From: an uncultured Coriobacteriaceae bacterium | GTDB taxonomy: Bacteria; Actinomycetota; Coriobacteriia; Coriobacteriales; Coriobacteriaceae | Direction of reading: 5' to 3' | NCBI GenBank assembly: GCA_944322175.1 | Contig: CALUOB010000007.1 | Span: forward strand, 1 to 37,430 | Length of the DNA stretch: 37,430 nt | Part shown: piece by piece, positions 3,449 through 20,619 of the stretch | Layout of the letters: each line of letters starts with the position of its first letter | How positions within the stretch are numbered: position 1 is the stretch's first letter | The notes under the pieces: model-generated | Told to the model about the DNA's origin: nothing | Seen by the model: the letters and a program-made list of their open reading frames with translations, nothing else | Databases searched by the model: none | Translations under genes and position numbers: made by a program

Positions 3449-4156
3449 CTACGGCTCCCGACGCACCTCTGCGCCCGCTCCCGCCCGCCTGCGCGCCGTG
3501 CCCGCACGGACCGCCTTTCCGTGTCGGCGCACGCCGTCCGAGCTGCCGCTTTGCGCCTCGGCCTCGCGGTCTGCGCGCACCCATTTCCAAAACGTCGAGC
3601 GACACACGCCGCACTCCTCCGCCGCACTCGCCGACGTGGTCTCGCCGCGCTCAAACCGTGCGCGAGCATCGGCGTAGCACGCCGGGCGCTTTTTTACCGG
3701 ACGCCCGAACCGCGCCCCGCGCGCCTTGGCGGCGGCGATACCCTCCGCCTGCCGGCGACGAATGCTCTCGCGCTCCACTTGGGCGATGTACGACAGCAAC
3801 TGCAGCACCACGTCGGCCAAGAACGTGCCCGTAAGGTCGCGCTGAGCGTCGCGCGTGTTGAGCAGCGGCATGTCGAGAACCACGAGATCGGCCTTCTTCT
3901 CTCGGGTGAGTACGCGCCATTGCTCGAGAATCTCCTCGTAGTTGCGCCCCAAACAGTCGATGCTCCCCATGACGAGCGTGTCGCCGGGATCGAGCTCGCC
4001 GAGCATGTCCTGGTAGGCGGGCCTCTGAAAGTCCGCGCCCGTCCAGCGGTCGACAAATATGCAATTCTCGGGAACCGGGAATGCCCGCAGCGCGTCGATC
4101 TGGCGATTGACGTTCTGATCTTTGGTCGAAACGCGCGCGTATCCGTACACGGCCAT
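3449..4156 (-). CDS. Serine recombinase (resolvase/invertase family), catalytic Arg68 replaced by Cys
   Basis: This 235-residue protein has a small serine recombinase domain (about 1-145; YGYARVST at 4-11, nucleophile Ser10) and a Hin/resolvase-like DNA-binding helix-turn-helix (CGVCRSTFWKWVRADR, about 180-195). Numbering coincides with gamma-delta resolvase: Arg8, Ser10, Arg45, Asp67 and Arg71 are present, but residue 68, an essential arginine in the family, is Cys (TGT, codon at 3953-3955). The paralogue at 9691-10557 keeps Arg68 (SIDRLGR). A single C-to-T change of CGT would explain it. The C-terminal tail of about 40 residues is Arg/Ala-rich and shows no recognised domain. The reading frame is otherwise intact. 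The protein may still bind DNA but is probably poor at strand cleavage. Confidence 0.85.
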   Translation of the reverse strand: MAVYGYARVSTKDQNVNRQIDALRAFPVPENCIFVDRWTGADFQRPAYQDMLGELDPGDTLVMGSIDCLGRNYEEILEQWRVLTREKKADLVVLDMPLLNTRDAQRDLTGTFLADVVLQLLSYIAQVERESIRRRQAEGIAAAKARGARFGRPVKKRPACYADARARFERGETTSASAAEECGVCRSTFWKWVRADREAEAQSGSSDGVRRHGKAVRAGTARRRAGAGAEVRREP

Positions 4157-7887: not shown

Positions 7888-8023
7888 GGTGAAACTCCTT
7901 CTTGGTAGGGCACGCGTTCCGTGCGCGCTCAGAATGTTTTAGGCAACCGCGCGCAAGCACGCGGGGTTCGCGCAGGCCGCCGGCTTAAAGCAGCGCTGCG
8001 CGGAAGAACACAGAAGACGGCGC

Positions 8024-8545
8024 TTACGCGGCCTTCTGGTCCTTGATGGCGTCCAGGACGTTGATGAGACCCTGGATCGGGCCGTTGATAACGCGAACGG
8101 CACCGGTGGCAGGACCGAGAGCGGCCTGAAGCACCATGGAGAGCAGCTGGTCGCGCGTGGGCAGATCGGCGATGGCCAGAACCTGCTCGGCGGTAACAGC
8201 CTTACCCTCCGAGATACCACCCTTGATGGTGATGACGTCCTTCGTCGCATCGGCGAAGTCCTTCAGCACCTTGGCGGCCTCGACGGGCTCCTTCTCGAAG
8301 AAGATGCAGGCGGTCGGGCCGGCGAGGATATCGTCGAGCGCGGGCTGCTCCTTCTCCTTGAGTGCGATCTTGACCAGGGTGTTCTTGAGAACCTTCATCT
8401 CGGCGCCGACCTCGCGGAGCTTGTGACGCAGGTCCTGAGACTGCTCGACCGTCAGGCCGTAGTAGCCGATGACGAACAGACCGGCGGACGCATCGATGCG
8501 CTCGTTGATCTGAGCAACCTGATCGAACTTGGACTGTGCGGGCAT
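8024..8545 (-). CDS. rplJ: Ribosomal protein uL10
   Basis: The 173-residue protein anchors L7/L12 dimers to 23S rRNA at the ribosomal stalk base. It shows the L10 N-terminal RNA-binding fold (VGAEMKVLKNTLVKIAL) and a C-terminal helix region for L12 dimers (LGPATGAVRVINGPIQGLINVLDAIKDQ). ATG at 8545 follows GAGGAGG. The gene leads the rplJL transcript and is preceded by an L10 leader with a terminator, so expression is probably autoregulated. rplKA, its common upstream neighbours, are not in the window. Confidence 0.98.
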   Translation of the reverse strand: MPAQSKFDQVAQINERIDASAGLFVIGYYGLTVEQSQDLRHKLREVGAEMKVLKNTLVKIALKEKEQPALDDILAGPTACIFFEKEPVEAAKVLKDFADATKDVITIKGGISEGKAVTAEQVLAIADLPTRDQLLSMVLQAALGPATGAVRVINGPIQGLINVLDAIKDQKAA

Positions 8546-8612
8546 GTTGACACCTCCTCGTAGCGTTTACCGGGCACAACCCGCACCTCAGAGGGCGGGG
8601 CTCGGCAAAAGC

Positions 8613-8643
8613 AAAAAGCCCCGCCGCTATCCAGCGACGGGGC
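8613..8643 (-). terminator. Leader terminator (attenuator) upstream of rplJ
   Basis: On the minus strand GCCCCGTCGCT-ggat-AGCGGCGGGGC (one mismatch) is followed by TTTTTGCTTTT. It lies between the L10 leader motif and the rplJ start, so rplJL is transcribed only by read-through. In Bacillus subtilis an L10(L12)4-controlled terminator occupies the same place; the same mechanism here is inference. Confidence 0.85.
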
Positions 8644-8659
8644 GAGAAGACTCCATGCA

Positions 8660-8760
8660 TCTGCTCGACCACCTCGGCAGGCGGGCCTTGCAGCGCTTGT
8701 GGGCGCGGCAACCCCTTTGAGCCTTGCGGCACCGGCTGTCTCTGGCAGCGGAATTGTGCG
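8660..8760 (-). ncRNA. Ribosomal protein L10 leader RNA
   Basis: The minus-strand leader contains the conserved blocks of the L10 leader: AGAGACAGCCGGTGCC (around 8727-8743) and CCTGCCGAGG (8672-8681), paired by the intervening sequence to mimic the L10-binding kink-turn of 23S rRNA. It precedes the terminator at 8613-8643. The boundaries are approximate. Confidence 0.85.
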
Positions 8761-8790
8761 TGAACACAATGGCCTTTCGGCCACTCAGGT

Positions 8791-8819
8791 ATTGTGCCAA
8801 GCCGCAGCCGAGCCGTCAA
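8791..8819 (-). promoter_or_regulatory. Putative rplJL promoter
   Basis: On the minus strand TTGACG (8814-8819) and CACAAT (8791-8796) lie 17 bases apart, giving a leader of about 240 bases that contains the L10 leader and the terminator. This marks rplJL as its own unit here, separate from rplKA. Confidence 0.6.
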
Positions 8820-8881
8820 GCAAAACATCCGGTGCGCCGCGCACCCGCAGGCCGCACCATAAACGCGCCACAAACCGAAGG

Positions 8882-9769
8882 CTAGAACACCGTCAGCGTG
8901 AAGGAGCGCTCGTCAACGGCACCGGGGTCGAGAAGCACGGTGTCGCGCTTGTGCTCGAACACGTCGTCCTCGTCGGTTGCCGTTGCGTGGCCGAGCCACG
9001 GCTCGAGCGCTGCGAACGGAGCATCGCCGAACGACCATACGCCCAGTGAGGTGAAGCCCTCGAAGTCGCAGCGGATACCGTGCCCGCTCTTTGTGCCGAC
9101 AAGCTCGATGGTGCTGTCGGGCACGTTCTGGAACACCCACGCGTCCTGGGTGAAGGCGTCGCGCGAAAGCGGCATATGGTCGTCGTTCTCAAACGGGGTG
9201 CGCGCCTGGCCGTAGTCCATGAGCCCCGAAGGCGTCACCAGCGGGCAGACGGGCGTCCACGGCTCGGTAAAGCGGACCTCGTAGTCTTCGAAGCACTCGT
9301 CGGTACCGGGGAGCGGCACGTTGAACGCCGGGTGACCACCCTCGGTAAAGGGCAGGGGCACCGATCCGGTGTTGGTGACCTTGTACACCTGCTCGAGCGA
9401 GGCGTCGTCGACAATGCGGTAGGTCATCTCGAGCATGAAGTCGAACGGGAACTGCTCGCGCGTTTCGGGCGTGGACACCAGACGATACGAAACCGCCTCG
9501 TCCGTTTCGGACACGATCTCGTGACGGTAGTTGCGCGCCAGGCCATGGCGGCCCATGTGCGCAGGGCCTTCGGCCGTGGACGCCTCGCCGTTGCGCAGCG
9601 AGCCGACTATGGGAAACAGAATCGGGGCGCTCTTTGCCCACCAGCGCGCGTCGCGCTGCCACAGGTACTCACGGCCGTCGAGGTTGAGGCTCATGAGCTG
9701 CGCGCCCTGTGCGTCAACCTGCGCCGAAAACGCTCCGCGAGCGATCTTGGTAATCGTCGAGTCTGCCAT
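8882..9769 (-). CDS. Aldose 1-epimerase family protein (LacX-type)
   Basis: The 295-residue cytosolic protein belongs to the aldose 1-epimerase (mutarotase) superfamily, LacX-like branch. Conserved features are the LWQRDARWWAKSAPILFPIVGSL-type start, HMGRHGLARN with a catalytic-type His, GGHPAFNVPLP with the second His, and a C-terminal LEPWLGHATATDED. It should interconvert alpha and beta anomers of a hexose or related sugar; the substrate is unknown. The ATG at 9769 follows GGAAAGGA at 6 bases; a longer open frame to 10072 is rejected because it runs antiparallel-frame through the recombinase gene. The first 79 bases overlap the tail of the recombinase gene on the same strand. Confidence 0.88.
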   Translation of the reverse strand: MADSTITKIARGAFSAQVDAQGAQLMSLNLDGREYLWQRDARWWAKSAPILFPIVGSLRNGEASTAEGPAHMGRHGLARNYRHEIVSETDEAVSYRLVSTPETREQFPFDFMLEMTYRIVDDASLEQVYKVTNTGSVPLPFTEGGHPAFNVPLPGTDECFEDYEVRFTEPWTPVCPLVTPSGLMDYGQARTPFENDDHMPLSRDAFTQDAWVFQNVPDSTIELVGTKSGHGIRCDFEGFTSLGVWSFGDAPFAALEPWLGHATATDEDDVFEHKRDTVLLDPGAVDERSFTLTVF

Positions 9770-10557
9770 GCTACGTCCTTTCCCTCGCACCGTGCGAGCC
9801 GTGTACAAGCGTATTGTGGCATACCGCACCGCGCACAGCGCCACCCAACCAGGCGAACGGCTCCCCGCCGCTTGAGAACGGAAACGCCGCTGCGCAAGCG
9901 TCCTGCCAAGAGAGACAGCCTGAGGCACGCGTCTTGCTCGCCCAGCGACTCTTTGAGGCGGTCGGCGCGCACCCACTTCCAAAACGTGGAGCGGCACACG
10001 CCGCATGCTCGCGCTGCGCGCGCCGAGCTGACCTCGCCCCGCTCGAACTGCGCGCGCTCGTCCGGGTAGCACGGTGGGCGGGGCTTTGCCGGCCTGCCGA
10101 AGCGAGCGCCGCGCGCCTTGGCAGCGGCTATACCTTCCGCCTGCCGCCGCCGTATGCCCTCGCGCTCAACCTGTGCCACGTAGCTGAGCAGCTGCAAAAC
10201 GATGTCGGATATGAGCGCGCCTGTGACCCCGGGCGCCGCCCCGCGCGTAGGCCGCGTGTCGAGCAAGGGCATATCGAGAACCGTGATGTCGGCGCCGATA
10301 TCGTGCGTGAGATGGCGCCACTGGTCGAGAATATCGGCGTAGCTTCTCCCCAGACGATCGATGCTCGCTACCACGAGGAGATCTCCGCGCGTGAGGTTGC
10401 CCACCATGCGCTGCCACTCCGGACGCTCAAACGTGGCGCCCGTAAAGTGATCGACATAGATATTCTCTTCGGCAACAGGAAACGCCCGCAACGCGTCCAG
10501 CTGCCGGTTTACGTTTTGGTCGCGCGTGGATACGCGCGCATAGCCAAACGTCGTCAC
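9691..10557 (-). CDS. Serine recombinase (resolvase/invertase family), intact catalytic set
   Basis: This 288-residue protein is a paralogue of the recombinase at 3449-4156, about two thirds identical by eye over the first 195 residues. Catalytic Arg8, Ser10, Arg45, Asp67, Arg68 and Arg71 (gamma-delta numbering) are all present, then comes the helix-turn-helix CGVCRSTFWKWVRADR. It catalyses site-specific DNA inversion or resolution through a phosphoserine intermediate. The GTG at 10557 is preferred over GTG at 10566 because AGAGGTGG then lies 5 bases upstream and the residue numbering matches the family. The Arg-rich tail (about 90 residues) runs through the epimerase promoter region and overlaps its first 79 bases, so it may be dispensable. 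No cognate invertible segment was identified. Confidence 0.87.
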   Translation of the reverse strand: MTTFGYARVSTRDQNVNRQLDALRAFPVAEENIYVDHFTGATFERPEWQRMVGNLTRGDLLVVASIDRLGRSYADILDQWRHLTHDIGADITVLDMPLLDTRPTRGAAPGVTGALISDIVLQLLSYVAQVEREGIRRRQAEGIAAAKARGARFGRPAKPRPPCYPDERAQFERGEVSSARAARACGVCRSTFWKWVRADRLKESLGEQDACLRLSLLAGRLRSGVSVLKRRGAVRLVGWRCARCGMPQYACTRLARCEGKDVAWQTRRLPRSLAERFRRRLTHRARSS

Positions 10558-10597
10558 CGTTTCCACCTCTTTGCGCCTGCCCGTCGTGGCATAAATA

Positions 10598-10611
10598 CGA
10601 ACATTTGTACG
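10598..10611. promoter_or_regulatory. Palindrome-like site upstream of the second recombinase
   Basis: CGAACATTTGTACG shares ATACGAACAT and TGT with the SOS-like box at 3402-3415 but departs from the LexA consensus at three or more positions. It lies about 40 bases upstream of the recombinase start, in the divergent region shared with the AMMECR1 gene. It could be a diverged LexA operator, or a site bound by the recombinase itself. Confidence 0.25.
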
Positions 10612-10755
10612 ATAGAACGCGGCGCGGACACCTACACAAAAAAGAGAGACCTTCCAACCGGTACGACGCGCTACTCAGGCTGAAGGCGGGAATAGTTAGG
10701 TAAAGCACTGCCGCGCTCGGGCCCACGGGCGCGGAGGCTCCGAAAGGAGATCGTC

Positions 10756-12228
10756 ATGCCGGTACTTGCAGCGTTTGCCGTCCCGCATCCACCCCTCATC
10801 GTTCCCGCCGTCGGACACGGCAGGGAGCGCGAGATCGACGCCACGATAGAAGCCTACCGGGAGGTCGGCCGTCGCATCGTCGAACTCGACCCCGATACCA
10901 TCGTTGTATCGAGCCCGCACACGGCCTACTACCTCGATTACCTGCACATTGCCCCGGGACGCGAGGCAACCGGATCGTTCGCCTCGTTTGGAGCGCCCGG
11001 CGAGGGCAGCACGGTGCGCTACGACACCGAGCTTGCCTCGGAGCTCGCCCAGAGCGCCGAGGCGGAGGGCATTCCCGCAGGAACGTCGGGGCAGCGCGAG
11101 CCCAACCTCGACTGGGGCGTCCTCGTCCCCCTGCACTTTGTGCTGCGCGCGCACGATGAGCTCGAACCGCAAGGCAACAACGGTCGACATGCGCTGCCGC
11201 AGCTGCCCCACCGCATCGTTCGCCTCGGCATCGCAGGACTTTCCCCAGACGTCAACTACCGTTTCGGCACCCTGGTCCGCAAAGTTTCCGAGCAACTCGG
11301 ACGTCGCATCGTCTACGTCGCATCGGGAGATCTCTCTCACAAGCTCTCGGAAAGCGGTCCCTACGGCTATGCCCCAGAGGGGCCCGAATTCGACGAGCTT
11401 GCGTGCCGCGCTTTCAGAACCGGCAACTTCCTCGAGCTTCTCCGCGCCGACCCCGGGCTTTGCGAACGCGCGGCGGAATGCGGCCTGAGGTCGTTTCAGA
11501 TCATGGCGGGCGCGCTGGACCGCACGCCGGTAAAGCCGGAGCTTCTGAGCTACGAAGGGCCTTTCGGCGTCGGCTACGGCGTTGCAGCCTTCACGCCAAC
11601 AGGGCCAGCGGGCTCAGACAACAGCCGCGCCTTCGGCGAGCAGTACGTCGCCTGGCATAAGGCAGATCAGGAGCGTCGCCGCAGCGCCGAAAGCCCCTGG
11701 GTACGGCTTGCGCGCTTCTCGCTCGAACGCTACGTGCGCGACCGCAAGCAAACCGACCCCACAGGCGACCTCCCGAGCGACCTTGCCGCCACGCTGCCGA
11801 CAGAGCTCTTCTCCACGCGCGCTGGAGCGTTCGTGTCGCTCAAAATCAACGGACAGCTGCGCGGGTGCATCGGCACCATCGCGCCCGTGCGCGCCTCTCT
11901 CGCGGCAGAGATCTGCGCCAACGCCGTGAGCGCCGGCTGCCACGACCCGCGCTTTCCCGCCGTTTCCGCAGACGAGCTCGACGAGCTCGTGTACGACGTG
12001 GACGTTCTCTCCCAACCGGAGCGCGTACAAGGCCCGGAGAACCTCGACGCGAAGCGCTACGGAGTCATCGTGAGCACCGCAGACGGACGCCGCGGCCTTC
12101 TGCTCCCCGACCTCGACGGCATTGACACGGTAGAGGAGCAGCTCGGCATCGCCGCGCGCAAGGGAGGCATCGATCTCGAAGAAGACGAGGTCACCCTGGA
12201 GCGCTTTACCGTTACGAGGCACCTCTGA
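10756..12228 (+). CDS. AmmeMemoRadiSam system fusion: LigB-like dioxygenase fold + AMMECR1
   Basis: The 490-residue protein fuses an N-terminal class III extradiol dioxygenase (LigB/Memo superfamily) domain (about 1-275, starting LAAFAVPHPPLIVPAVG and with VASGDLSHKLSESGPYG) to a C-terminal AMMECR1 domain (about 300-490) with the hallmark LRGCIGT. In the AmmeMemoRadiSam system AMMECR1, a Memo-like protein and a radical SAM enzyme occur together; the reaction is not established. ATG follows AAAGGAG at 6 bases. The stop TGA shares its last base with the ATG of the radical SAM gene, so the two are translationally coupled. Histidines of the N-terminal domain suggest a metal site, but ring-cleavage activity is not implied. 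Confidence 0.9.
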   Translation: MPVLAAFAVPHPPLIVPAVGHGREREIDATIEAYREVGRRIVELDPDTIVVSSPHTAYYLDYLHIAPGREATGSFASFGAPGEGSTVRYDTELASELAQSAEAEGIPAGTSGQREPNLDWGVLVPLHFVLRAHDELEPQGNNGRHALPQLPHRIVRLGIAGLSPDVNYRFGTLVRKVSEQLGRRIVYVASGDLSHKLSESGPYGYAPEGPEFDELACRAFRTGNFLELLRADPGLCERAAECGLRSFQIMAGALDRTPVKPELLSYEGPFGVGYGVAAFTPTGPAGSDNSRAFGEQYVAWHKADQERRRSAESPWVRLARFSLERYVRDRKQTDPTGDLPSDLAATLPTELFSTRAGAFVSLKINGQLRGCIGTIAPVRASLAAEICANAVSAGCHDPRFPAVSADELDELVYDVDVLSQPERVQGPENLDAKRYGVIVSTADGRRGLLLPDLDGIDTVEEQLGIAARKGGIDLEEDEVTLERFTVTRHL

Positions 12229-13214
12229 TGAGCGCGGCCGCGCTCAACGCGCAGGCCACGTGCTCCACGTGCCCACGCCGCTGCCGCATAGAGCCCGGCG
12301 GACACGGGGCGTGCCGCGCTCGCCGAAACGAAGAAGGCGCTGTCGTTGCCGAGAACTATGCGCGCGTTACGTCGCTCGCGCTCGACCCTGTGGAGAAGAA
12401 GCCGCTCGCCCGCTTTCTGCCCGGCAGGTTCGTTCTCTCTGTGGGAAGCTACGGCTGCAACCTGCGCTGCCCCTTCTGCCAGAACCACGAGATCGCGCAA
12501 GCCCGCGCCAACGACGTTCCCTGGCGCGCCATTGCCCCCGACGAGCTCGTCCGCACTGCTCAAGACCTCCGCGCCCACAACCCCGACGTAGCAGGCATTG
12601 CCTTTACCTATAACGAGCCGCTCGTGGGCTGGGAGTACGTGCGCGACTGCGCTCAGCTCGCCCACGAAACGGGGCTCGTCACCGTGCTCGTGTCGAACGG
12701 TCTGGCAGACGAAGCCGTGATACAGGAGCTCGCCCCTCACATCGACGCGGCAAACATCGATCTCAAATCATTCTCCGCCGCCTTTTACGCCATGTGCCTC
12801 ACGGGCAACCTTTCGTCGCCCAAGGACGAAGACGCCCCGCAGACAGCCTTGGGGGCCCGCGCATTTGCGTGCGCCAAACGCACGATCGAGCTTCTCGCCG
12901 CCTGCCCCGGATGCCATCTCGAAGTGACCACCCTCGTCGTGCCGGGCCTCAACGACAGCGCCGCCGAGATCGACGCGGCAGCGCGCTGGCTTGCAAGCAT
13001 CCCCTACCGAGAAGATCCTCCCGCGCGCTGGGCAGAGCTCGCCGCCCCGGGGGCGGAGAAGCCACGAGGCGACGCTCAGCCCACCTACCACGTCACGCGC
13101 TTCTTCCCGCGTTGGCGCCTCACCGATCGCGGCGCCACGCCCGTCTCAACGGTCTACGAGCTCGCCGAGGTGGCACGGCAATACCTCGATCACGTGTACG
13201 TGGGCAACTGCTAA
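12228..13214 (+). CDS. AmmeMemoRadiSam system radical SAM enzyme
   Basis: The 328-residue protein is a radical SAM enzyme related to pyruvate formate-lyase activating enzyme. The [4Fe-4S] motif CNLRCPFC (Cys77, 81, 84) is followed by FTYNEPLVGWEYV and NIDLKSF, both typical of this group. An extra N-terminal cysteine set (CSTCPRRC...GACRAR, about 12-29) probably binds a second metal or cluster. It starts at the last base of the preceding stop codon, and its own TAA overlaps the stop of metH on the opposite strand. A partner protein in cis (the AMMECR1 fusion) is the likely co-worker; the substrate is unknown. Confidence 0.93.
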   Translation: MSAAALNAQATCSTCPRRCRIEPGGHGACRARRNEEGAVVAENYARVTSLALDPVEKKPLARFLPGRFVLSVGSYGCNLRCPFCQNHEIAQARANDVPWRAIAPDELVRTAQDLRAHNPDVAGIAFTYNEPLVGWEYVRDCAQLAHETGLVTVLVSNGLADEAVIQELAPHIDAANIDLKSFSAAFYAMCLTGNLSSPKDEDAPQTALGARAFACAKRTIELLAACPGCHLEVTTLVVPGLNDSAAEIDAAARWLASIPYREDPPARWAELAAPGAEKPRGDAQPTYHVTRFFPRWRLTDRGATPVSTVYELAEVARQYLDHVYVGNC

Positions 13215-15733
13215 GCGCGCTCGACGAGGAACCTCTCGGCGATGCGCGCGGCAGCGGCGGCATCCTTTGCGTAGGCGTCGGCGCCTATTTGGTCGGCGTA
13301 CTCCTGGGTGAGCACGGCACCTCCCACGAAGACCTTGGTTTCGGGCGCCTCGCGGCGCAACAGGTCGATCGTGTCGCGCATGGCGGGCACCGTCGTCGTC
13401 ATGAGCGCCGAGAGGCCCACCAGGCGAACGCCGTGCTCGCGCACACAGCGCAAGACCTCCTCGGGCGCCACGTCTCGACCCAGGTCGTAGATGCGGTACC
13501 CGTAGTTCTCGAGCAGCATCTTGACGATGTTCTTGCCGATGTCGTGGATGTCTCCCTTGACCGTCGCCAGGCACAGGGCGCCCTTTGCGGCACTTGCCCC
13601 ATCTACGCCGTCCGCCTGCGCGCGCAGGCGCTCTTTTACCAAGTCAAAGCCGACCTTCGCGGCCTCGGCAGACGCCATAAGCTGCGGCAAGAAGAACGTT
13701 CCCTCCTCAAAGCGATCGCCCACCTCGTCGAGGGCGGGAATCAGCATCCCGTTCATAACGTCGAGCGGGTCCTCGGCGTCATCGAGCGCCGCCTCCACCG
13801 CTGCGGGCACTTCTCCCCTGCGTCCCGAGATCACCAAAGCGCGAACGTCAAAGGGGTCGGCGGCGCCGCTGTGTCCCTTGGCACTCGCTGCGCCTCGAGC
13901 CTCTTTGCCGCCCGAACCATCGGTCGCGCGCGGCGCTTCGTACGGGTCTTGCCGCGACGCGTAGCGCTCGATAAACTGCCGCGACTCACCGTCCTGCGCG
14001 TTGAGAACGCGCCACGCGGCAACCGCATCGCGGTAACGAGGCGAGGCGGGGTTCAGGATGGGCATATCGAGACCTGCGCCGAAGGCGGCCGCCAAAAACG
14101 TCGCGTTGAGCACAGGGCGCTGCGGCAGCCCAAAGCTCACGTTTGAGACGCCGAGCACCGTGCGCACGCCGAGCCGCTCCTTGACCATCGAGACCGCGCG
14201 GAGAATCTCGACAACCTGCGCCTGATTGGTAGAAGCCGTCATCACCAGGCAGTCGATTACGACGTCCTCCCGGGGAACGCCCGCCGCCTCCGCGGCGCGC
14301 ACGATCTTCTCTGCCAAGGCAAAGCGCTCTTCGGCCGTGGCAGGTATCCCGCGCTCGTCGAGCGTGAGCCCCACCACGGCGCAGCCGTAGTGCCGCACCA
14401 GCGGGAGCACGGAGGCGAGGCTCTCGTCCTTCGCGTTGACCGAGTTGACCATGGGCTTTCCGGCATAAGCGCGCACGCCCGCCTCCACCGCCTCGAGATC
14501 GGAGGAGTCGATCACGAGCGGCAAAGGGCATGCCCCCTGAATGGTCTCGACGGCGCGGGCTATGAGCGCCGGCTCATCGATCTCGGGCAGGCCGAGGTTC
14601 ACGTCGAGAAGATCGGCGCCCTGCTCGGCCTGCTCGATAGCCTGGCCGAGCACGTAGTCCATATCGCCCGATCTCAGCGCGTCTTTGAGGCGCGGCTTGC
14701 CCGTTGGGTTGATGCGCTCGCCGATCACGGCGACGTTGCGCGACCCCGCGGGCAGCACGACCACGTTCTGCGCGCTCGTCACGGCAAAGCACGGGGCAAC
14801 CGCGCGCGCCAGCGGCGTGCGACCGGCGATCTTGGCGCGAAGTGCGGCAATGTAGGACGGATCGGTGCCGCAGCAGCCTCCGACCACCGCAACGCCGTGC
14901 TCGACCATCCTCTCCACGGCGTCGGCGTACGGGTCGGCAGCGATGTCGTACACGGTAACGCCGCCCTCGTCGCGCGGCAGTCCGGCATTTGCCTGCACCA
15001 TAACGGGAACGGGAGAAACCTCGAGCATGCGCTCGGCAAAGGGCGCCACCTCCGCAGGCCCCAGTGAGCAGTTGATGCCCACGACCTCGGCACCGAGCGC
15101 AGGCAGGGCAATGGCAGCCGCCTCGGGCGTGGTCCCCAGGAACGTCCGCCCGTCTTCGCCAAACGTCATCGTGACAAAGATCGGCAGACGCGTGCACTCC
15201 TTTGCCGCAAGCACCGCCGCCTTAGCCTCGAGCAGGTCGGCCATGGTCTCGATGAGGATAAGATCGGCGCCGTGGCGCTCCGCCGCTCGAACCTCCTCGG
15301 CAAACAAATCGTACGCCTCGTCAAACGAGAGCGTGCCGAGCGGACGCAGCAGCGCCCCCAAGGGCCCGATGTCTGCCGCTACCCAGCGGGGACCCGCCGC
15401 CCGCGCGCACGCTATGGCGGCCTCGAACACCGCGTCGACCGGCGCGGCAGCGCCGAGCTTGCGCGCGTTGGCACCGAACGTGTTTGCCGTAACGACCTCC
15501 GACCCCGCCTCTACGTAGGCCCGATGTATCGCCGTAACCGACTGGGGATCCGAGAGGCACAAGAGCTCGGGCAGCTCCCCGGCAGCCAGTCCGGCGCGTT
15601 GAAGCATGGTTCCCATCGCTCCGTCAAAAAGCAGGTGCCGCTCACCTGCGATAACAGCAATAAGGTCGGGGTCGGCGACGTTCAAGTCGCCGGGCACCTC
15701 GCGATACGGCAGGCGGTTCTCGTCAAAGCGCAT
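13211..15733 (-). CDS. metH: Cobalamin-dependent methionine synthase, lacking the activation domain
   Basis: The 840-residue enzyme transfers the methyl group of 5-methyltetrahydrofolate via cobalamin to homocysteine. Domains in order are: homocysteine methyltransferase (about 10-300; Zn cysteines in GINCSLGP and GGCCGTDP), pterin-binding (about 330-590; VIGERINPTGKPRL), four-helix cap (about 650-720) and B12-binding domain with the cobalt-ligand motif DIHDIG. It stops there: the roughly 330-residue SAM-binding reactivation domain of classical MetH is absent and is supplied by the upstream gene. ATG at 15733 follows AGAGAGG at 8 bases; an in-frame GTG at 15760 overlapping the previous stop (GTGA) is an alternative. 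A low-complexity Gly/Ala linker joins pterin and cap domains. Last gene of the metF operon. Confidence 0.95.
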   Translation of the reverse strand: MRFDENRLPYREVPGDLNVADPDLIAVIAGERHLLFDGAMGTMLQRAGLAAGELPELLCLSDPQSVTAIHRAYVEAGSEVVTANTFGANARKLGAAAPVDAVFEAAIACARAAGPRWVAADIGPLGALLRPLGTLSFDEAYDLFAEEVRAAERHGADLILIETMADLLEAKAAVLAAKECTRLPIFVTMTFGEDGRTFLGTTPEAAAIALPALGAEVVGINCSLGPAEVAPFAERMLEVSPVPVMVQANAGLPRDEGGVTVYDIAADPYADAVERMVEHGVAVVGGCCGTDPSYIAALRAKIAGRTPLARAVAPCFAVTSAQNVVVLPAGSRNVAVIGERINPTGKPRLKDALRSGDMDYVLGQAIEQAEQGADLLDVNLGLPEIDEPALIARAVETIQGACPLPLVIDSSDLEAVEAGVRAYAGKPMVNSVNAKDESLASVLPLVRHYGCAVVGLTLDERGIPATAEERFALAEKIVRAAEAAGVPREDVVIDCLVMTASTNQAQVVEILRAVSMVKERLGVRTVLGVSNVSFGLPQRPVLNATFLAAAFGAGLDMPILNPASPRYRDAVAAWRVLNAQDGESRQFIERYASRQDPYEAPRATDGSGGKEARGAASAKGHSGAADPFDVRALVISGRRGEVPAAVEAALDDAEDPLDVMNGMLIPALDEVGDRFEEGTFFLPQLMASAEAAKVGFDLVKERLRAQADGVDGASAAKGALCLATVKGDIHDIGKNIVKMLLENYGYRIYDLGRDVAPEEVLRCVREHGVRLVGLSALMTTTVPAMRDTIDLLRREAPETKVFVGGAVLTQEYADQIGADAYAKDAAAAARIAERFLVERA

Positions 15734-15756
15734 ACGTCGAGCCTCTCTTCTTGACT

Positions 15757-16518
15757 TCACAGGGCGCCCTCGCCCGCGCCGCGGCACGTCACGCCGCGGG
15801 CGCGCAAAGAGCACGCTTCGCGCAAACGGCATAGCGAGCAGGGGTGCGGCGCATCCGCGCTCGCCGGCGCGGTGTCGAATAAGCCCACAAACGCCGTCAC
15901 GCTCTTGCTCGGGACGAGCATGTTAGACGACGTGCAGGTAATGCCCAGGCCACGCGCAGCGTCGAGCGCCGCAAGCAGATCGGGCTGCACGTTGAGCGGC
16001 AAGTCGCCGTACCCCGGGCTAAAGCGCCAGTTTATCGCATATCCCGCGCGCTCCGCCCGAGCCCGGACTTCGGCCTCGAGCGCCGCTGTGCCCGCCTCCA
16101 CATAGGCGGAGCACGCCGCGTCAAACAACGTCGCCCCGAGCGGATCCGTTGCGGCAAGAGCGCGCAGGCGCCGCTCGCTCTCGGCCCCGAGCGTGCATGC
16201 GAGAACCGCGCAGAACCGCGCATCTTTAAGATGGAGAAACGCCGACTTCCCGCGCAGGCGCACCGTCGTCCCCGCCAGGTCTATCGCAGGGGCAACGTCT
16301 GGCGCCCCGGGCACGGGCACCACGCTGAAGCACCGGGCAGTGCCCCGTGGAGCCAAGGCGTCTTCGCATGTCTGAGCGATGCGCCCGATCCGCTCGGCAA
16401 GCTCGCCGGTGATCTCTTGCCCGGCGTAGCCCAGGTACCGAAGCATCTCGGCGCGATCTATGCGCGCCGAGAGCGTATGCGGAGGTAACGCGATATCCAC
16501 ATGTCGGCAGCTATCCAT
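15757..16518 (-). CDS. Methionine synthase activation-domain-like protein with Cys-rich tail
   Basis: The 253-residue protein resembles the C-terminal reactivation domain of MetH, which binds S-adenosylmethionine and re-methylates oxidised cobalamin. The RFSPGYGDLPLNVQ stretch and the following TSSNMLVPSKSVTAFVG match the SAM-binding core. The C-terminus has CSLCRLREACSLRARGVTC, a four-cysteine cluster like that of stand-alone activators in Clostridia and Thermotoga, suggesting an Fe-S or zinc site for electron delivery. ATG at 16518 is chosen because it lies 10 bases after the metF stop; ATG at 16578 would overlap metF by 50 bases. It lies between metF and metH in one operon, which fits a reactivator acting in trans. 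Confidence 0.87.
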   Translation of the reverse strand: MDSCRHVDIALPPHTLSARIDRAEMLRYLGYAGQEITGELAERIGRIAQTCEDALAPRGTARCFSVVPVPGAPDVAPAIDLAGTTVRLRGKSAFLHLKDARFCAVLACTLGAESERRLRALAATDPLGATLFDAACSAYVEAGTAALEAEVRARAERAGYAINWRFSPGYGDLPLNVQPDLLAALDAARGLGITCTSSNMLVPSKSVTAFVGLFDTAPASADAPHPCSLCRLREACSLRARGVTCRGAGEGAL

Positions 16519-16528
16519 CGCCCGTCTC

Positions 16529-17401
16529 TTATCCACGACCCTCCCTTGGCACCGCGCCGGCGCAAACGCGCGCAACATCGGGCCGGTTCATCGTGTACAC
16601 ATGGATGCCCTCGACACCGTGAGAGACGAGGTCTTCGATCTGGCGGCAAGCGTAGTCCATGCCCGCCTGACGCAGCGCCGAGGGGTCGTCCTCGTAGCGA
16701 GCGAGAAGCTTGATGACCGGCGAGGGCAACGACGCCCCGCACATGAACACCATGCGCTCGAGCTGCTGCTTGCTCATGAAGGGCATGATGCCGTACGTCA
16801 CCGGCACGGTCACGCCCGCACGGGCGGCACGATCGCGGAAGCGGTAGAGCTCCTCGTTGCTGAAGCAAAGCTGCGTGACCAAAAACGACGCGCCGGCGTC
16901 CTGCTTCTCCTTCAGGCGCTCCACATCGAGATCGAGATCGTCACAGGCTATGTGACCCTCGGGGTACGCCGCCGCCCCCACGCAGAACCCCGCCTCTACC
17001 AAATCGGGGATAAGGTCTTTGGCGTAGCGGTAGTCGCGAACCTGCTGGCCGGGCACCGGGTCGCCGCGCAGCGCGAGCACGTTTTGCACGCCCGCCGCCT
17101 TGAACTCGTCGATCTTCTCGGCAAGCTCGGAACGGCTGAGCCCCATGCACGTCAGATGGGCAACCGAGCTCACCCCAAGCTCCTCCGAGATCATCGACGC
17201 GATGGCAGAGGTCGCCTCGGCGTTTCCCGACCCGCTTGCCGAGTACGTTACGCTTACGAAGTCGGGCGCCAAGGGCGCGAACTCCGCCGCCACCTCGCGC
17301 GCGCGGTCGAGCGTAAGCTCTCCTTTGGGCGGAAACATCTCAAACGAGAGGGCGCATTTCTTCTCCTCGCACCTCAGGCGAAAAACCTCGTCAACGCGCA
17401 T
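16529..17401 (-). CDS. metF: 5,10-methylenetetrahydrofolate reductase
   Basis: The 290-residue flavoprotein makes 5-methyltetrahydrofolate, the methyl donor for the methionine synthase encoded downstream. It shows the family pattern: FEMFPPKGE near the N-terminus, VSVTYSASGSG, HLTCMG, VLALRGDPV and FLVTQLCF. Length is normal for a bacterial MetF. ATG at 17401 follows GGAGG at 4 bases. It is the first gene of a three-gene operon (metF, activation protein, metH) with 10- and 23-base spacers, so methyl donor, transferase and reactivator are made together. Confidence 0.94.
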   Translation of the reverse strand: MRVDEVFRLRCEEKKCALSFEMFPPKGELTLDRAREVAAEFAPLAPDFVSVTYSASGSGNAEATSAIASMISEELGVSSVAHLTCMGLSRSELAEKIDEFKAAGVQNVLALRGDPVPGQQVRDYRYAKDLIPDLVEAGFCVGAAAYPEGHIACDDLDLDVERLKEKQDAGASFLVTQLCFSNEELYRFRDRAARAGVTVPVTYGIMPFMSKQQLERMVFMCGASLPSPVIKLLARYEDDPSALRQAGMDYACRQIEDLVSHGVEGIHVYTMNRPDVARVCAGAVPREGRG

Positions 17402-17443
17402 GGGGCCTCCTCTGTGCCGGGTCGCGAAACCTCTTTGCACGGT

Positions 17444-17449
17444 ATTATC
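17444..17449 (-). promoter_or_regulatory. Putative -10 box of the metF operon
   Basis: GATAAT on the minus strand lies about 43 bases before the metF ATG; no convincing -35 box is seen at the right distance. No SAM or cobalamin riboswitch fits into the short leader. Confidence 0.3.
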
Positions 17450-17560
17450 GCCCAGTAGCATCGGCCTTTTGCGGGCACGCGCCAAGCGACAAAAACCGAA
17501 ACACGATCGCAACGCCCCGGGCCGCCCGGGCGCGCTCGGCTCCCTGCGCGACGGAGCTGC

Positions 17561-17566
17561 TAAAAT
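17561..17566 (+). promoter_or_regulatory. Putative extended -10 promoter of the UPF0210 gene
   Basis: TGCTAAAAT ends about 78 bases before the ATG; TAAAAT matches five of six -10 positions and is preceded by TG at the extended position. No good -35 box is seen. Confidence 0.4.
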
Positions 17567-17644
17567 GAGCTGAACAAAGCGCGCGGCACATGCAGGAAAG
17601 CGCCGCCGGCAACCGTCCGCCTACCAACTGAACAGGAGCATCGC

Positions 17645-19009
17645 ATGGCCATCACAGCGCAGGAAATCGCCGAGACTCGCGGCATGGTCGTTGAGCAGCA
17701 CTTGGACATCCGTACGGCTACGATGGGCGTCTCCCTGCTCGGATGCGCAGACGAGAACATCGACCGCATGGCGACCAAGGTATACGACCGCATCACCTCA
17801 CGCGCAGAGCGCCTTGTTCCCGTTGCCAACGACCTGGCCCGCGAATACGGCATCCCCATCGTCAACAAGCGCGTGTCGGTCACTCCGATCGGCATGATCG
17901 CATCGGCGTGCTCCGACGAGGACCTCACGCCTCTCGCCCAGGCGCTTGACCGCGCCGCGCAGACCATCGGCATCGACTTCATCGGCGGCTTCTCCGCGCT
18001 GGTGCACAAGGGCATCGGCGACGCGGATCGCCGCCTCATGAACTGCATCCCCACCGCCCTCGCCACCACCGAGCGCGTGTGCTCCTCGGTCAACGTGGCG
18101 AGCCTTCGTGCCGGCATCAACATGGACGCCGTGCTCAAGATGGCCGAGATCGTCAAGAAAACCGCCGAGGCCACTGCTGACAACCAATGCTACGGCGCGG
18201 CAAAACTCGTCGTCTTCTCCAACATGGTCGAAGACTCCCCCTTCATGGCAGGCGCCGTTCACGGCACCGGCGAGGCGGACGCCGTGATCAACGTCGGCGT
18301 CTCCGGCCCCGGCGTTATGGCCGCGGCACTCGAGCGCCTTCCCGAGACGGCCGACTTCACCGAGGTTGCCGAGGAGATTAAGAAGACGAGCTTCAAGATC
18401 ACGCGTGCCGGCGAGCTCATGGCGCGCGAGGCCTCGCGTCGCCTCGGCGTGGCCAAGGGCATCGTGGACCTGAGCCTCGCGCCCACGCCCGCCGTGGGCG
18501 ACTCGGTTGCGCGCATCCTCGAGATCATCGGCGTCGGCACGTGCGGCGGCCCCGGCACCACCTGCTCGCTCGCCCTGCTCAACGACTGCGTCAAGAAGGG
18601 CGGCGTTATGGCGAGCTCGAGCGTGGGCGGCCTCTCGGGCGCCTTCATCCCCGTCTCCGAGGACGCCGACATGATCGCCGCCGCCGAGAAGGGCGCGCTC
18701 ACGCTCGAGAAGCTCGAGGCTATGACCTGCGTGTGCTCCGTGGGTCTCGACATGATCGCGGTCCCGGGCGACACCACCGTCGAGGCCATCGCCGGCCTCA
18801 TCGCCGACGAGATGGCCATCGGCGTCATCAACAACAAGACCACTGCCGTACGCGTTATCCCCGCCATCGGCTACGGCGTCGGCGACCGCCTGGACTACGG
18901 CGGCCTCATGGGCTACGCCCCTGTCATGCCCATCAACGAGCATGCGGGCACGGTCCTCGCCCACCGCGGCGGACACTTCCCCGCCCCGCTCAACTCCCTC
19001 AAGAACTAG
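17645..19009 (+). CDS. UPF0210 (DUF711, 'PFL family') protein
   Basis: The 454-residue cytosolic protein belongs to the conserved UPF0210 family, distantly related in fold to pyruvate formate-lyase-type proteins; no reaction is established. Full length is present, with family blocks [60 protein letters not shown] and the C-terminal [18 protein letters not shown] follows CAGGAG at 6 bases. In most genomes an ACT-domain UPF0237 protein is encoded just upstream; the 243-base upstream region here contains no such gene. A methyltransferase follows after 3 bases, probably coupled. Confidence 0.93.
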
Positions 19010-19012
19010 GCC

Positions 19013-19921
19013 GTGAACGTTGACCGCCACTCCGCGCTCCTTCTCTCCATCGATTGGAACGCGGAGTGGATGCAACTGCAAGAGGCCCGGCGCAGGGCGG
19101 ACGACCCTGCTTGGTGGGACAAGCGCGCCAAGCATTTCAGACCCAAAGAGACCTCGCCCTACGCCCGCGACTTTCTCGCACTCGCCGGCATCTGCCCTGG
19201 CGAGCGCGTGCTCGACATGGGCTGCGGATCGGGAACGCTTGCCATTCCGCTCGCGCAACGCGGCTGCCGCGTCGTAGCTGCCGACTTCTCTGCCCGCATG
19301 CTCGACGAGCTCACAACTACCGCGGGCGAGGCAAACGTCCGCGTGAGCAGCGACGACGCAGCGGGTATCAGGCCCGTGCTTCTCGCTTGGGATGACGACT
19401 GGGCCAGCGCGGGCCTCGACGAGAACAGCGTCGACGTGGCCCTCGCCTCCCGCTCTATCGCCACGCACAACCTGCGCGCCGCCCTCGAGAAGCTCGACCG
19501 CGTCGCAACCAGACGCTGCTGCGTCACGCTCGCCTGCAACGCAGGACCGCGCTACGACGCCGAGGTTATGAACGCCATCGGCGTCTCGGTCGGCGAGAGC
19601 GTCGACTGGCTGTACGCCTTCAACATCCTCGCCCAAATGGACCGCGCACCCGAGGTCTCCTACCTAGCGTCGCCGCGCAAGGATACGTTCGACTCGCTCG
19701 AAGAGGGCGTTGCCGACTTTGCGCGCATGCTCGAATCGGGGTACGAGGACAAGATCGATGAGCTTCGTTCGTATCTCGCCGAGCACATGGTCAAAAATGA
19801 CGAGGCGGGCCAACCCGGACCCAAGGGAAGGCTCCAAGGTCGCTACACGCTCGATCACATGCGTCTTACGCGCTGGGCGTTCATAAGCTGGGAACCCGTG
19901 CGCCGAAGCGCCGGAATTTAG
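19013..19921 (+). CDS. Class I SAM-dependent methyltransferase
   Basis: The 302-residue protein has a Rossmann methyltransferase fold: motif I VLDMGCGSGTLAIPLA (about 66-81), the acidic loop after VVAADFSARML, and VDVALASRSIATHN as motif IV-like. The substrate is unknown; no motif ties it to RNA, protein or a cofactor. The GTG start lies 3 bases past the UPF0210 stop and has no Shine-Dalgarno, so translation probably depends on coupling; ATG at 19069 is a less likely start. Its TAG overlaps the stop codon of the gene on the opposite strand by four bases. Confidence 0.87.
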   Translation: MNVDRHSALLLSIDWNAEWMQLQEARRRADDPAWWDKRAKHFRPKETSPYARDFLALAGICPGERVLDMGCGSGTLAIPLAQRGCRVVAADFSARMLDELTTTAGEANVRVSSDDAAGIRPVLLAWDDDWASAGLDENSVDVALASRSIATHNLRAALEKLDRVATRRCCVTLACNAGPRYDAEVMNAIGVSVGESVDWLYAFNILAQMDRAPEVSYLASPRKDTFDSLEEGVADFARMLESGYEDKIDELRSYLAEHMVKNDEAGQPGPKGRLQGRYTLDHMRLTRWAFISWEPVRRSAGI

Positions 19922-20619
19922 CCCGAGATTTCGGGAAGCTCGACGCGCGTCTGCGAGCCGTCCTCGAACGTCAGCGCGAGCGCATCTCCGTCAAGCACCG
20001 CCTCCGTTACGCGGCCGCTGCCTTCGGCAAAGATCGTCGGCACCACGCCGTCAAAAAAGCCGTAGCTCACAACTTCGTACCCCGCTGCATCATCGTCTTC
20101 AGACAGGTTCTGGACCACGAAGAAGAAGCTGTTGCGCAATGCAAAGCATACGGGAGTACCCTCGAGCTCAAAGGCGGTCTCCTCCGTTGTGCCGGGCGCC
20201 ATGATATATCTGAACGACCAGGCGCCGCCCTTCTCCTCAAGCCAGCACGTGCACTGGTCCCAGTAGGTCAGGGTATCCGTGCGCGCCTCGCCGCTCTCCA
20301 CCTCAACTACCTCATCGGCAGAAGACACGCGCCGGTTCCCGGCATGATCCTTGGCCACGTCCTCGCCACGCGACGGTTCGGCGAGAAACGCGCGCATAAC
20401 CGCGCCGCCAAACCCAAAGAACACGAGCGCCCCGAGCGCGATGCCCAGAAGGATCGCCGCAAGCCGAATCCAAGCAGCCTTCTCGGGCCGCCCCGCCGCC
20501 CGAGCCCGCTCCAGCGCCTCATCCCCCTGCCGCTTCATAGAGCGCACGTCGCTATGCAAAGAGCGTGCATCTTTGGACTCGCTCTCCGAAAAGAGGGTTC
20601 GTTTGGCACGGATCGTCAT
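19918..20619 (-). CDS. One-helix membrane-anchored protein of unknown function
   Basis: The 233-residue protein has a cytosolic N-terminus with charged, possibly coiled segment (about 10-48), one membrane helix (about 50-74) and an extracytoplasmic domain of about 155 residues. That domain contains two close cysteines (WDQCTCWLEE) and beta-rich sequence; I recognise no family. ATG follows CTGGAGGTG at 4 bases. It is transcribed alone, converging on the methyltransferase gene with overlapping stops. The leader holds an imperfect hairpin (20643-20678) next to the ribosome binding site. Confidence 0.75.
   Translation of the reverse strand: MTIRAKRTLFSESESKDARSLHSDVRSMKRQGDEALERARAAGRPEKAAWIRLAAILLGIALGALVFFGFGGAVMRAFLAEPSRGEDVAKDHAGNRRVSSADEVVEVESGEARTDTLTYWDQCTCWLEEKGGAWSFRYIMAPGTTEETAFELEGTPVCFALRNSFFFVVQNLSEDDDAAGYEVVSYGFFDGVVPTIFAEGSGRVTEAVLDGDALALTFEDGSQTRVELPEISG

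Follow-up and report, generated by a model that had tools for sequence, protein, structure and literature searches.

Background

The AmmeMemoRadiSam system combines an AMMECR1-type protein (component A, TIGR04335), a Memo-family component B and a radical S-adenosylmethionine (SAM) enzyme (component S, TIGR04337), and the gene names amrB and amrS are in use for it. A passage of PMC7159879 that cites the 2019 superfamily paper of Burroughs mentions "Memo-Ammecr1 systems" that include a radical SAM domain, and the AMMECR1 family is listed in a table of uncharacterized conserved proteins in PMC6393860. In the literature searched, we noticed no functional study of the bacterial AMMECR1/Memo/radical SAM system or of its reaction. 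Here we analyze a gene pair of this type in a stretch of 37,430 nucleotides (contig CALUOB010000007.1, assembly GCA_944322175.1) from an uncultured Coriobacteriaceae bacterium; the whole stretch is referred to as the window. An earlier annotation made from the sequence alone (the original prediction) had described the pair as an AmmeMemoRadiSam system in which a Memo/LigB-like domain is fused to AMMECR1. It had also pointed to the disease links of the human relatives, which are documented in passages of PMC5502304 for AMMECR1 and of PMC11081632 for MEMO1.

Results and discussion

Domains and arrangement of the gene pair

As far as the sequence allows a judgment, the pair places a metal-site component (B) and AMMECR1 (A) in one polypeptide, which is predicted to be translationally coupled to the radical SAM enzyme (S). 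The basis of this predicted arrangement is the domain content, the gene overlap, the co-occurrence of the two genes, their block-wise presence or absence, and invariant residues at the metal site and in the LRGCIG motif. We tentatively interpret the pair as a LigB variant of AmmeMemoRadiSam that may act as one functional unit, a two-protein, O2-independent radical/metal enzyme. The features are collected in Table 1; residue numbers (H11, C242, R369, C77 and so on) follow the fusion protein of the window and its partner, which serve as reference throughout.

The assignment to AmmeMemoRadiSam was borne out by both families at the NCBI cut-offs, with 112.5 bits for the fusion against TIGR04335 (cut-off 99) and a narrow pass of the partner against TIGR04337 (cut-off 220); the partner also scores 63.4 bits against the radical SAM family PF04055. 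The claims that a fusion reduces the system to two genes and that these share a base hold as well, with the LigB and AMMECR1 domains in a single open reading frame (ORF) that ends in a TGATG overlap. Among 39 distinct loci, 26 could use an in-frame start that overlaps the fusion gene, so that this type of overlap is common among the relatives and not universal. The AlphaFold2 model of the N-terminal domain matches TK2203 most closely (root-mean-square deviation, rmsd, 2.2; 254 residues aligned), followed by aminophenol dioxygenases (Z 27-28), LigB (Z 25.1, rmsd 3.2, 263 aligned) and MEMO1 (Z 19.4, rmsd 3.2, 234 aligned), and the C-terminal domain superimposes on the AMMECR1 structure 1vaj with an rmsd of 2.1 over 169 residues.

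The ORF pair is real and not a chance arrangement, since the fusion has matches in 33 of 60 genomes (own genome included), with 44-88% identity where the full length was matched, and since both models are confident (mean predicted local distance difference test score 93.2 for the fusion and 94.4 for the radical SAM enzyme). The first ATG of the fusion gene is preceded by AGGAG at 10745-10749. The genome that contains the window (2.1 Mb, 167 contigs) has one AMMECR1 match. GC content by codon position did not separate the two genes from ORFs on the opposite strand, an Rfam search of 8000-20000 gave nothing over the gathering score, and searches for promoters and terminator-like elements yielded none and one (2.4 expected), respectively.

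Table 1. Coordinates of the gene pair and of its domains, motifs and candidate metal-site residues in the window. APD, aminophenol dioxygenase.
Feature	Positions	Strand	Evidence
LigB-AMMECR1 fusion gene, 490 aa	10756-12228	+	ORF, domain families, AlphaFold2 model, fold search
LigB/PCAD-fold domain, aa 6-276	10771-11583	+	PF02900, 129 bits (cut-off 26.3); TK2203 (5hee), Z 32.0
H11, metal ligand position (APD H13; LigB H12, MEMO1 H49)	10786-10788	+	72/72; phmmer alignment to 3vsg; structure alignment in a passage of PMC11081632
H55, metal ligand position (APD H62; LigB H61, MEMO1 H81)	10918-10920	+	72/72; alignment to APD; passage of PMC11081632
W120, at position of second catalytic His (LigB H127, beet DODA H119)	11113-11115	+	Alignment to 29ky; His 53/72, Trp 19/72
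H195, second-shell/catalytic His (LigB H195; MEMO1 DxxH)	11338-11340	+	72/72
E241-C242, candidate third metal ligands	11476-11481	+	C242 72/72; E241 67/72
AMMECR1 domain, aa 316-487	11701-12216	+	PF01871, 138.9 bits (cut-off 25); 1vaj, Z 20.2
LRGCIG motif, aa 368-373	11857-11874	+	R369, G370, G373 72/72; C371 70/72
TGATG stop/start overlap, one base common to both genes	12226-12230	+	Read from sequence
AmmeMemoRadiSam radical SAM enzyme gene, 328 aa	12228-13214	+	TIGR04337, 224.9 bits; pyruvate formate-lyase activating enzyme 3cb8, Z 23.5, 230 aligned
C12xxC15xxxC19x9C29 set, N-terminal	12261-12314	+	C12, C15, C29 in 62/63 rows; C19 in 61/63
CxxxCxxC [4Fe-4S]/SAM motif, C77, C81, C84	12456-12479	+	63/63 rows

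The model of the radical SAM enzyme is closest to the pyruvate formate-lyase (PFL) activating enzyme (rmsd 2.4), with NifB next at Z 19.5, and there are below-cut-off family matches to glycyl-radical activases. A fifth or more of the fold-match rows span residues 46-328, so these matches barely test the N-terminal cysteine part. The original prediction had singled out an additional N-terminal cysteine set: the cysteines are there (C12, C15, C19, C29), and they turn out to be a family-wide feature instead of a special one. The single alignment row with a gap at these positions is probably L062, whose reading starts beyond them. Residues 191-206 and 260-277 of the window enzyme are absent in more than 70% of 26 relatives.

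Co-occurrence of the fusion and the radical SAM gene

Three samples were surveyed: 60 genomes (own included), 148 genomes from the class to which G060, an Oscillospiraceae metagenome-assembled genome, belongs (here called Clostridia-type), and 198 genomes of the phylum (own included). Among the 60, a substantial radical SAM match accompanies the fusion in 31 of the 33 genomes that have it (some of the 31 matches being partial or under the cut-off) and is missing from all 27 others. Of the two genomes that break the pattern, G058 has its fusion truncated at a contig end, and G006, a one-contig genome, has an intact fusion but no such gene; G030 has the AMMECR1 part alone in a 150-aa frame, and G059 has pieces on two contigs. 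AMMECR1 is present in 62 of the 148 Clostridia-type genomes and the radical SAM gene (E 1e-20) in 58, all of them within the 62 and none among the remaining 86 (p ~1e-36 by Fisher's exact test, relatedness ignored); AMMECR1 occurs without the radical SAM gene in G100, G173, G177 and G205. The link is strong but looser in the phylum, where 74 genomes have AMMECR1, 80 the radical SAM gene and 69 both, leaving 5 with AMMECR1 alone and 11 with the radical SAM gene alone (69/74 genomes with AMMECR1 vs 11/124 without). The co-occurrence in relatives, whose lack would have counted against the original prediction, is thus found.

Fusion is the rule in the Clostridia-type genomes, because 58 of the 64 AMMECR1 sites fall in frames of 430 aa or more (counted as fusion length) and all 32 such loci inspected (L065-L096, two from G060) match the window protein across both domains. 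In the phylum, 37 of 75 places are in fusion-length frames. The Memo family PF01875 exceeds its cut-off in none of the 60 genomes, with one match below it (26.3 vs 27 bits, within the G041 fusion), and in 8 of the 148, three times as a separate Memo-sized frame and five times within a fusion-length frame. The Memo proteins of loci L097-L099 have an N-terminal hydrophobic stretch, and each is downstream of a gene of 406-432 aa. AMMECR1 has both LigB-type and Memo-type fused partners, since amrB of Segatella and Ideonella plasmids is a Memo-AMMECR1 protein (PF01875 with 193.7 and 154.4 bits, and PF01871) followed by amrS, and the window-type protein is LigB-AMMECR1. The fusion form and the N-terminal cysteines are less special than first thought, the former being common and the latter a feature of the family, and the pair is a sound but ordinary member of the widespread, functionally enigmatic AmmeMemoRadiSam system.

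The two genes are usually adjacent. The window and L032-L064 make up 34 longer loci, and in 32 of them the radical SAM gene is downstream of the fusion on the same strand within at most 0.8 kb, the exceptions being L055 (G006) and L056 (a second copy in G046). The two G046 paralogs differ: L057, beside a radical SAM gene, has PRGYMG and QCC in place of LRGCIG and ECG, and L056, which does not have that gene beside it, is canonical. In Clostridia-type genomes the radical SAM gene can be unlinked (for example in G115, G117, G147 and G150) and still co-occurs.

In four of the five carriers within genus g3 (L049-L052), the pair is located between a HAD-looking gene and a TetR-looking gene with a large MMPL-looking gene, as judged by eye. 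All ten g3 genomes of the sample without the fusion contain the TetR gene and the large gene, and neither gene of the pair was matched in the 16-kb stretch. Seven of the ten also have a HAD match (49-55% identity) on the same strand, 0.16-0.91 kb from the TetR gene; in L149 the HAD gene is on the other strand, and no HAD match was found in L155 or L158. Within this genus the two genes are either both there or both missing, as a block. The lineage offers a small form of the system, with two genes, one fused, and naturally dispensable, and a comparison or knockout would be clean because sister species naturally either carry or lack the pair at this one site.

The metal site

Conservation was counted over 72 distinct fusions. 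H11, H55, D192, S194, H195 and C242 are invariant, so the N-terminal domain does contain metal-site residues, whose lack would have counted against the original prediction. The correspondence of the two histidines to Memo was established through the alignment to aminophenol dioxygenases and the structure alignment given in a passage of PMC11081632, and not through direct alignment to Memo, which failed for them. The position of E241 has Glu in 67 fusions, Gln in 4 and Asp in 1, and in further relatives Met (unfused L139) and Gln (L133). In the AMMECR1 domain, R369, G370, G373, E385, D397, R399, F400 and D416 occur in all 72 fusions and C371 in 70.

The third metal ligand is probably either C242 or E241, and the conservation pattern favours C242. 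The Memo-AMMECR1 fusion L148, where a Cys-Gly aligns with C242-G243, also argues for the cysteine. Several observations weigh against it. E241 aligns with the glutamate that serves as metal ligand in aminophenol and dihydroxyphenylacetate dioxygenases. According to a passage of PMC11081632, the iron ligands H49, H81 and C244 of MEMO1 occupy the positions of LigB H12, H61 and E242, and the C244S variant binds no iron; by this route MEMO1 C244, which sits at the dioxygenase Glu position to which E241 is aligned, would correspond to E241 and not to C242. In a second Memo-AMMECR1 fusion, L145, the Cys-Gly is three columns off and Ala falls on C242 (mafft and hhalign agree), and the Memo proteins L097-L099 have Asp-Ser near the position of the MEMO1 cysteine. 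The term Memo/LigB-like itself held by fold and not by profile, where the window protein gave no match to PF01875 at E 0.001.

The invariant cysteine at the metal site hints at functional kinship with human MEMO1 and provides a clear handle on whether LigB-type partners work like MEMO1. If C242 is the ligand, AMMECR1 probably has partners of LigB type and of Memo type that share one job, and the bacterial protein should not carry the name dioxygenase.

Proposed mechanism and alternatives

These results lead us to propose, tentatively, the following sequence of events. The LigB domain would bind one iron-type metal through H11, H55 and C242 (favoured) or E241 and would not be a ring-cleaving dioxygenase. 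The AMMECR1 domain may be the substrate-holding part, with LRGCIG, E385, D397-x-R399-F400 and D416 as candidate residues. The reaction on the same substrate would be initiated by a 5'-deoxyadenosyl radical from the radical SAM enzyme, and a rearrangement or bond cleavage could then be completed at the metal site without O2. Published ideas on the substrate chemistry include modification of a nucleobase or of an isoprenoid. Two observations on gene content count against this reading: fusions with an intact site occur without a TIGR04337 gene in G006 (E 0.001) and in G173 and G205 (E 1e-20), and AMMECR1 is missing from 11 of the 80 phylum genomes that have the radical SAM gene. Since a small number of genomes contain the fusion but not its radical SAM partner, the protein may have uses beyond the radical step. 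The 11 genomes are G214, G217, G228, G234, G261, G277, G297, G307, G326, G349 and G373; the radical SAM gene scores above 600 bits in all but G234 and G228 and perhaps forms its own subfamily.

It is also conceivable that the fusion itself is the target of the radical SAM enzyme, which would leave a radical or a modification on the AMMECR1 domain (at LRGCIG) or near the metal site, as the PFL activating enzyme does on PFL. That enzyme is the closest solved fold, about 4 Z units above NifB, the matches to glycyl-radical activases, weaker and below cut-off, point the same way, and in the 60- and 148-genome sets the radical SAM gene never occurs without AMMECR1. However, the spacing of LRGCIG is unlike that of glycyl-radical sites, and the SAM enzymes QueE and viperin, whose folds are similar, have small-molecule substrates. 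The radical SAM genes without AMMECR1 in the phylum also fit poorly, and LRGCIG is intact in the fusions L055, L121 and L144, from genomes without the radical SAM gene. The motif is furthermore present in human AMMECR1, where a passage of PMC5502304 reports a glycine change within it with disease. We consider such activation of the fusion unlikely. Still less probable, in our view, is a role in metal or redox homeostasis, with the fusion binding iron or copper, a function proposed for MEMO1, and with a linked repair or stress role for the radical SAM enzyme: MEMO1 binds iron and had no dioxygenase activity with the substrates tried (passage of PMC11081632), but the invariance of D192, S194, H195 and several polar residues of the AMMECR1 domain is that of a catalytic pocket, and the pair has no widely shared neighbour of any kind, though not all neighbours are annotated.

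The LigB fold and the alignment of H11, H55, E241 and H195 with dioxygenase residues could mean that the domain functions as a class III extradiol dioxygenase, which would cleave an aromatic ring with O2 on a substrate supplied by the neighbouring genes. The second catalytic His of these enzymes is absent from the window protein and replaced by Trp in 19 of the 72 fusions; five of the 72 have another residue in place of the Glu, and none in place of the neighbouring Cys. The catalytic role of this His is described for His119 of beet DODA and His127 of LigB in a passage of PMC11926856. Moreover, the domain is coupled to an oxygen-sensitive enzyme class, and several relatives come from animal gut according to their record titles; such gut relatives live anaerobically. 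We regard dioxygenase activity as highly improbable. Only slightly less so is a broader scenario in which a Memo-like metal protein receives a radical or a modification on its AMMECR1 domain from the PFL-activase-like radical SAM enzyme, a fold known from O2 chemistry runs O2-free radical chemistry, and human MEMO1 and AMMECR1 are a remnant without the radical partner. An anaerobic swap, with the radical SAM enzyme replacing O2, was rejected because the gene also occurs in Sulfolobus acidocaldarius and on Sinorhizobium and Methylocystis plasmids, that is, in aerobes. No amrB is listed beside the Methylocystis match (the gene table is incomplete), and the Sinorhizobium stretch carries no annotation in its record. 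The preferred reading remains the O2-independent two-protein enzyme.

Genomic context

Clustering of ORFs of at least 80 aa in 74 loci revealed no third gene that accompanies the pair widely, and no shared glycyl-radical enzyme was seen beside it; unlinked genes were not searched. The fusion forms a cluster of 74 and the radical SAM gene one of at least 63 (over-long ORFs drop out), followed by clusters of 16 and 9. The 16-locus cluster looks like a common ABC ATPase. CdaA-like and CdaR-like (YbbR) clusters, recognized by eye, are downstream in 9 of 40 Clostridia-type loci: they immediately follow the radical SAM gene in L108-L111, L119, L123 and L132 and are nearby in L126 and L128; they were rejected as partners and taken as housekeeping gene order held in common.

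In the window, a serine-recombinase-type gene (9691-10566, minus strand) is directly upstream of the pair and kept in L032 (90%); it is 68% identical over ~200 residues to a second such gene at 3449-4156 (minus strand). Between the recombinase and the pair, at ~10590-10620, lies CGAACATTTGTACG, also kept in L032, which we take to be a candidate resembling the Gram-positive SOS box. Convergent behind the pair, 13211-17512 (minus strand) encodes a B12-dependent methionine synthase (873 aa, no activation-domain match) and MTHFR, together with a separate 273-aa protein that has a sub-cut-off activation-domain match. Clusters of this region are kept in L032, L045 and L060.

Comparison with known systems

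Components A and S place the window pair in AmmeMemoRadiSam, and its two-gene layout is that of amrB-amrS in Segatella and Ideonella. The difference is that these two amrB proteins have a Memo-profile domain, whereas the window protein has a LigB-profile domain; we class the pair as a LigB variant because LigB replaces the Memo-family component B. The radical SAM enzyme resembles the PFL activating enzyme in fold across residues 41-325 and differs from it by the additional N-terminal four-Cys part, which the matches barely cover. A weak viperin match (PADLOC pVip, 31.9 bits) is of the kind that superfamily members can give, and a role as a defence system was rejected.

The N-terminal domain has the fold, the two His ligand positions and the His195 of TK2203, aminophenol 1,6-dioxygenase and LigB. 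It differs from class III extradiol dioxygenases in the invariant Cys beside the Glu and in the Trp in place of the second catalytic His, and TK2203 also has Trp at that position. With MEMO1 it has in common the fold, the two His ligand positions, the DxxH motif and an invariant Cys near the third ligand; unlike MEMO1, with which it has 14% identity, the window protein is fused to AMMECR1, lies beside a radical SAM gene and has a Glu preceding the Cys, whose equivalence to the MEMO1 Cys is tentative.

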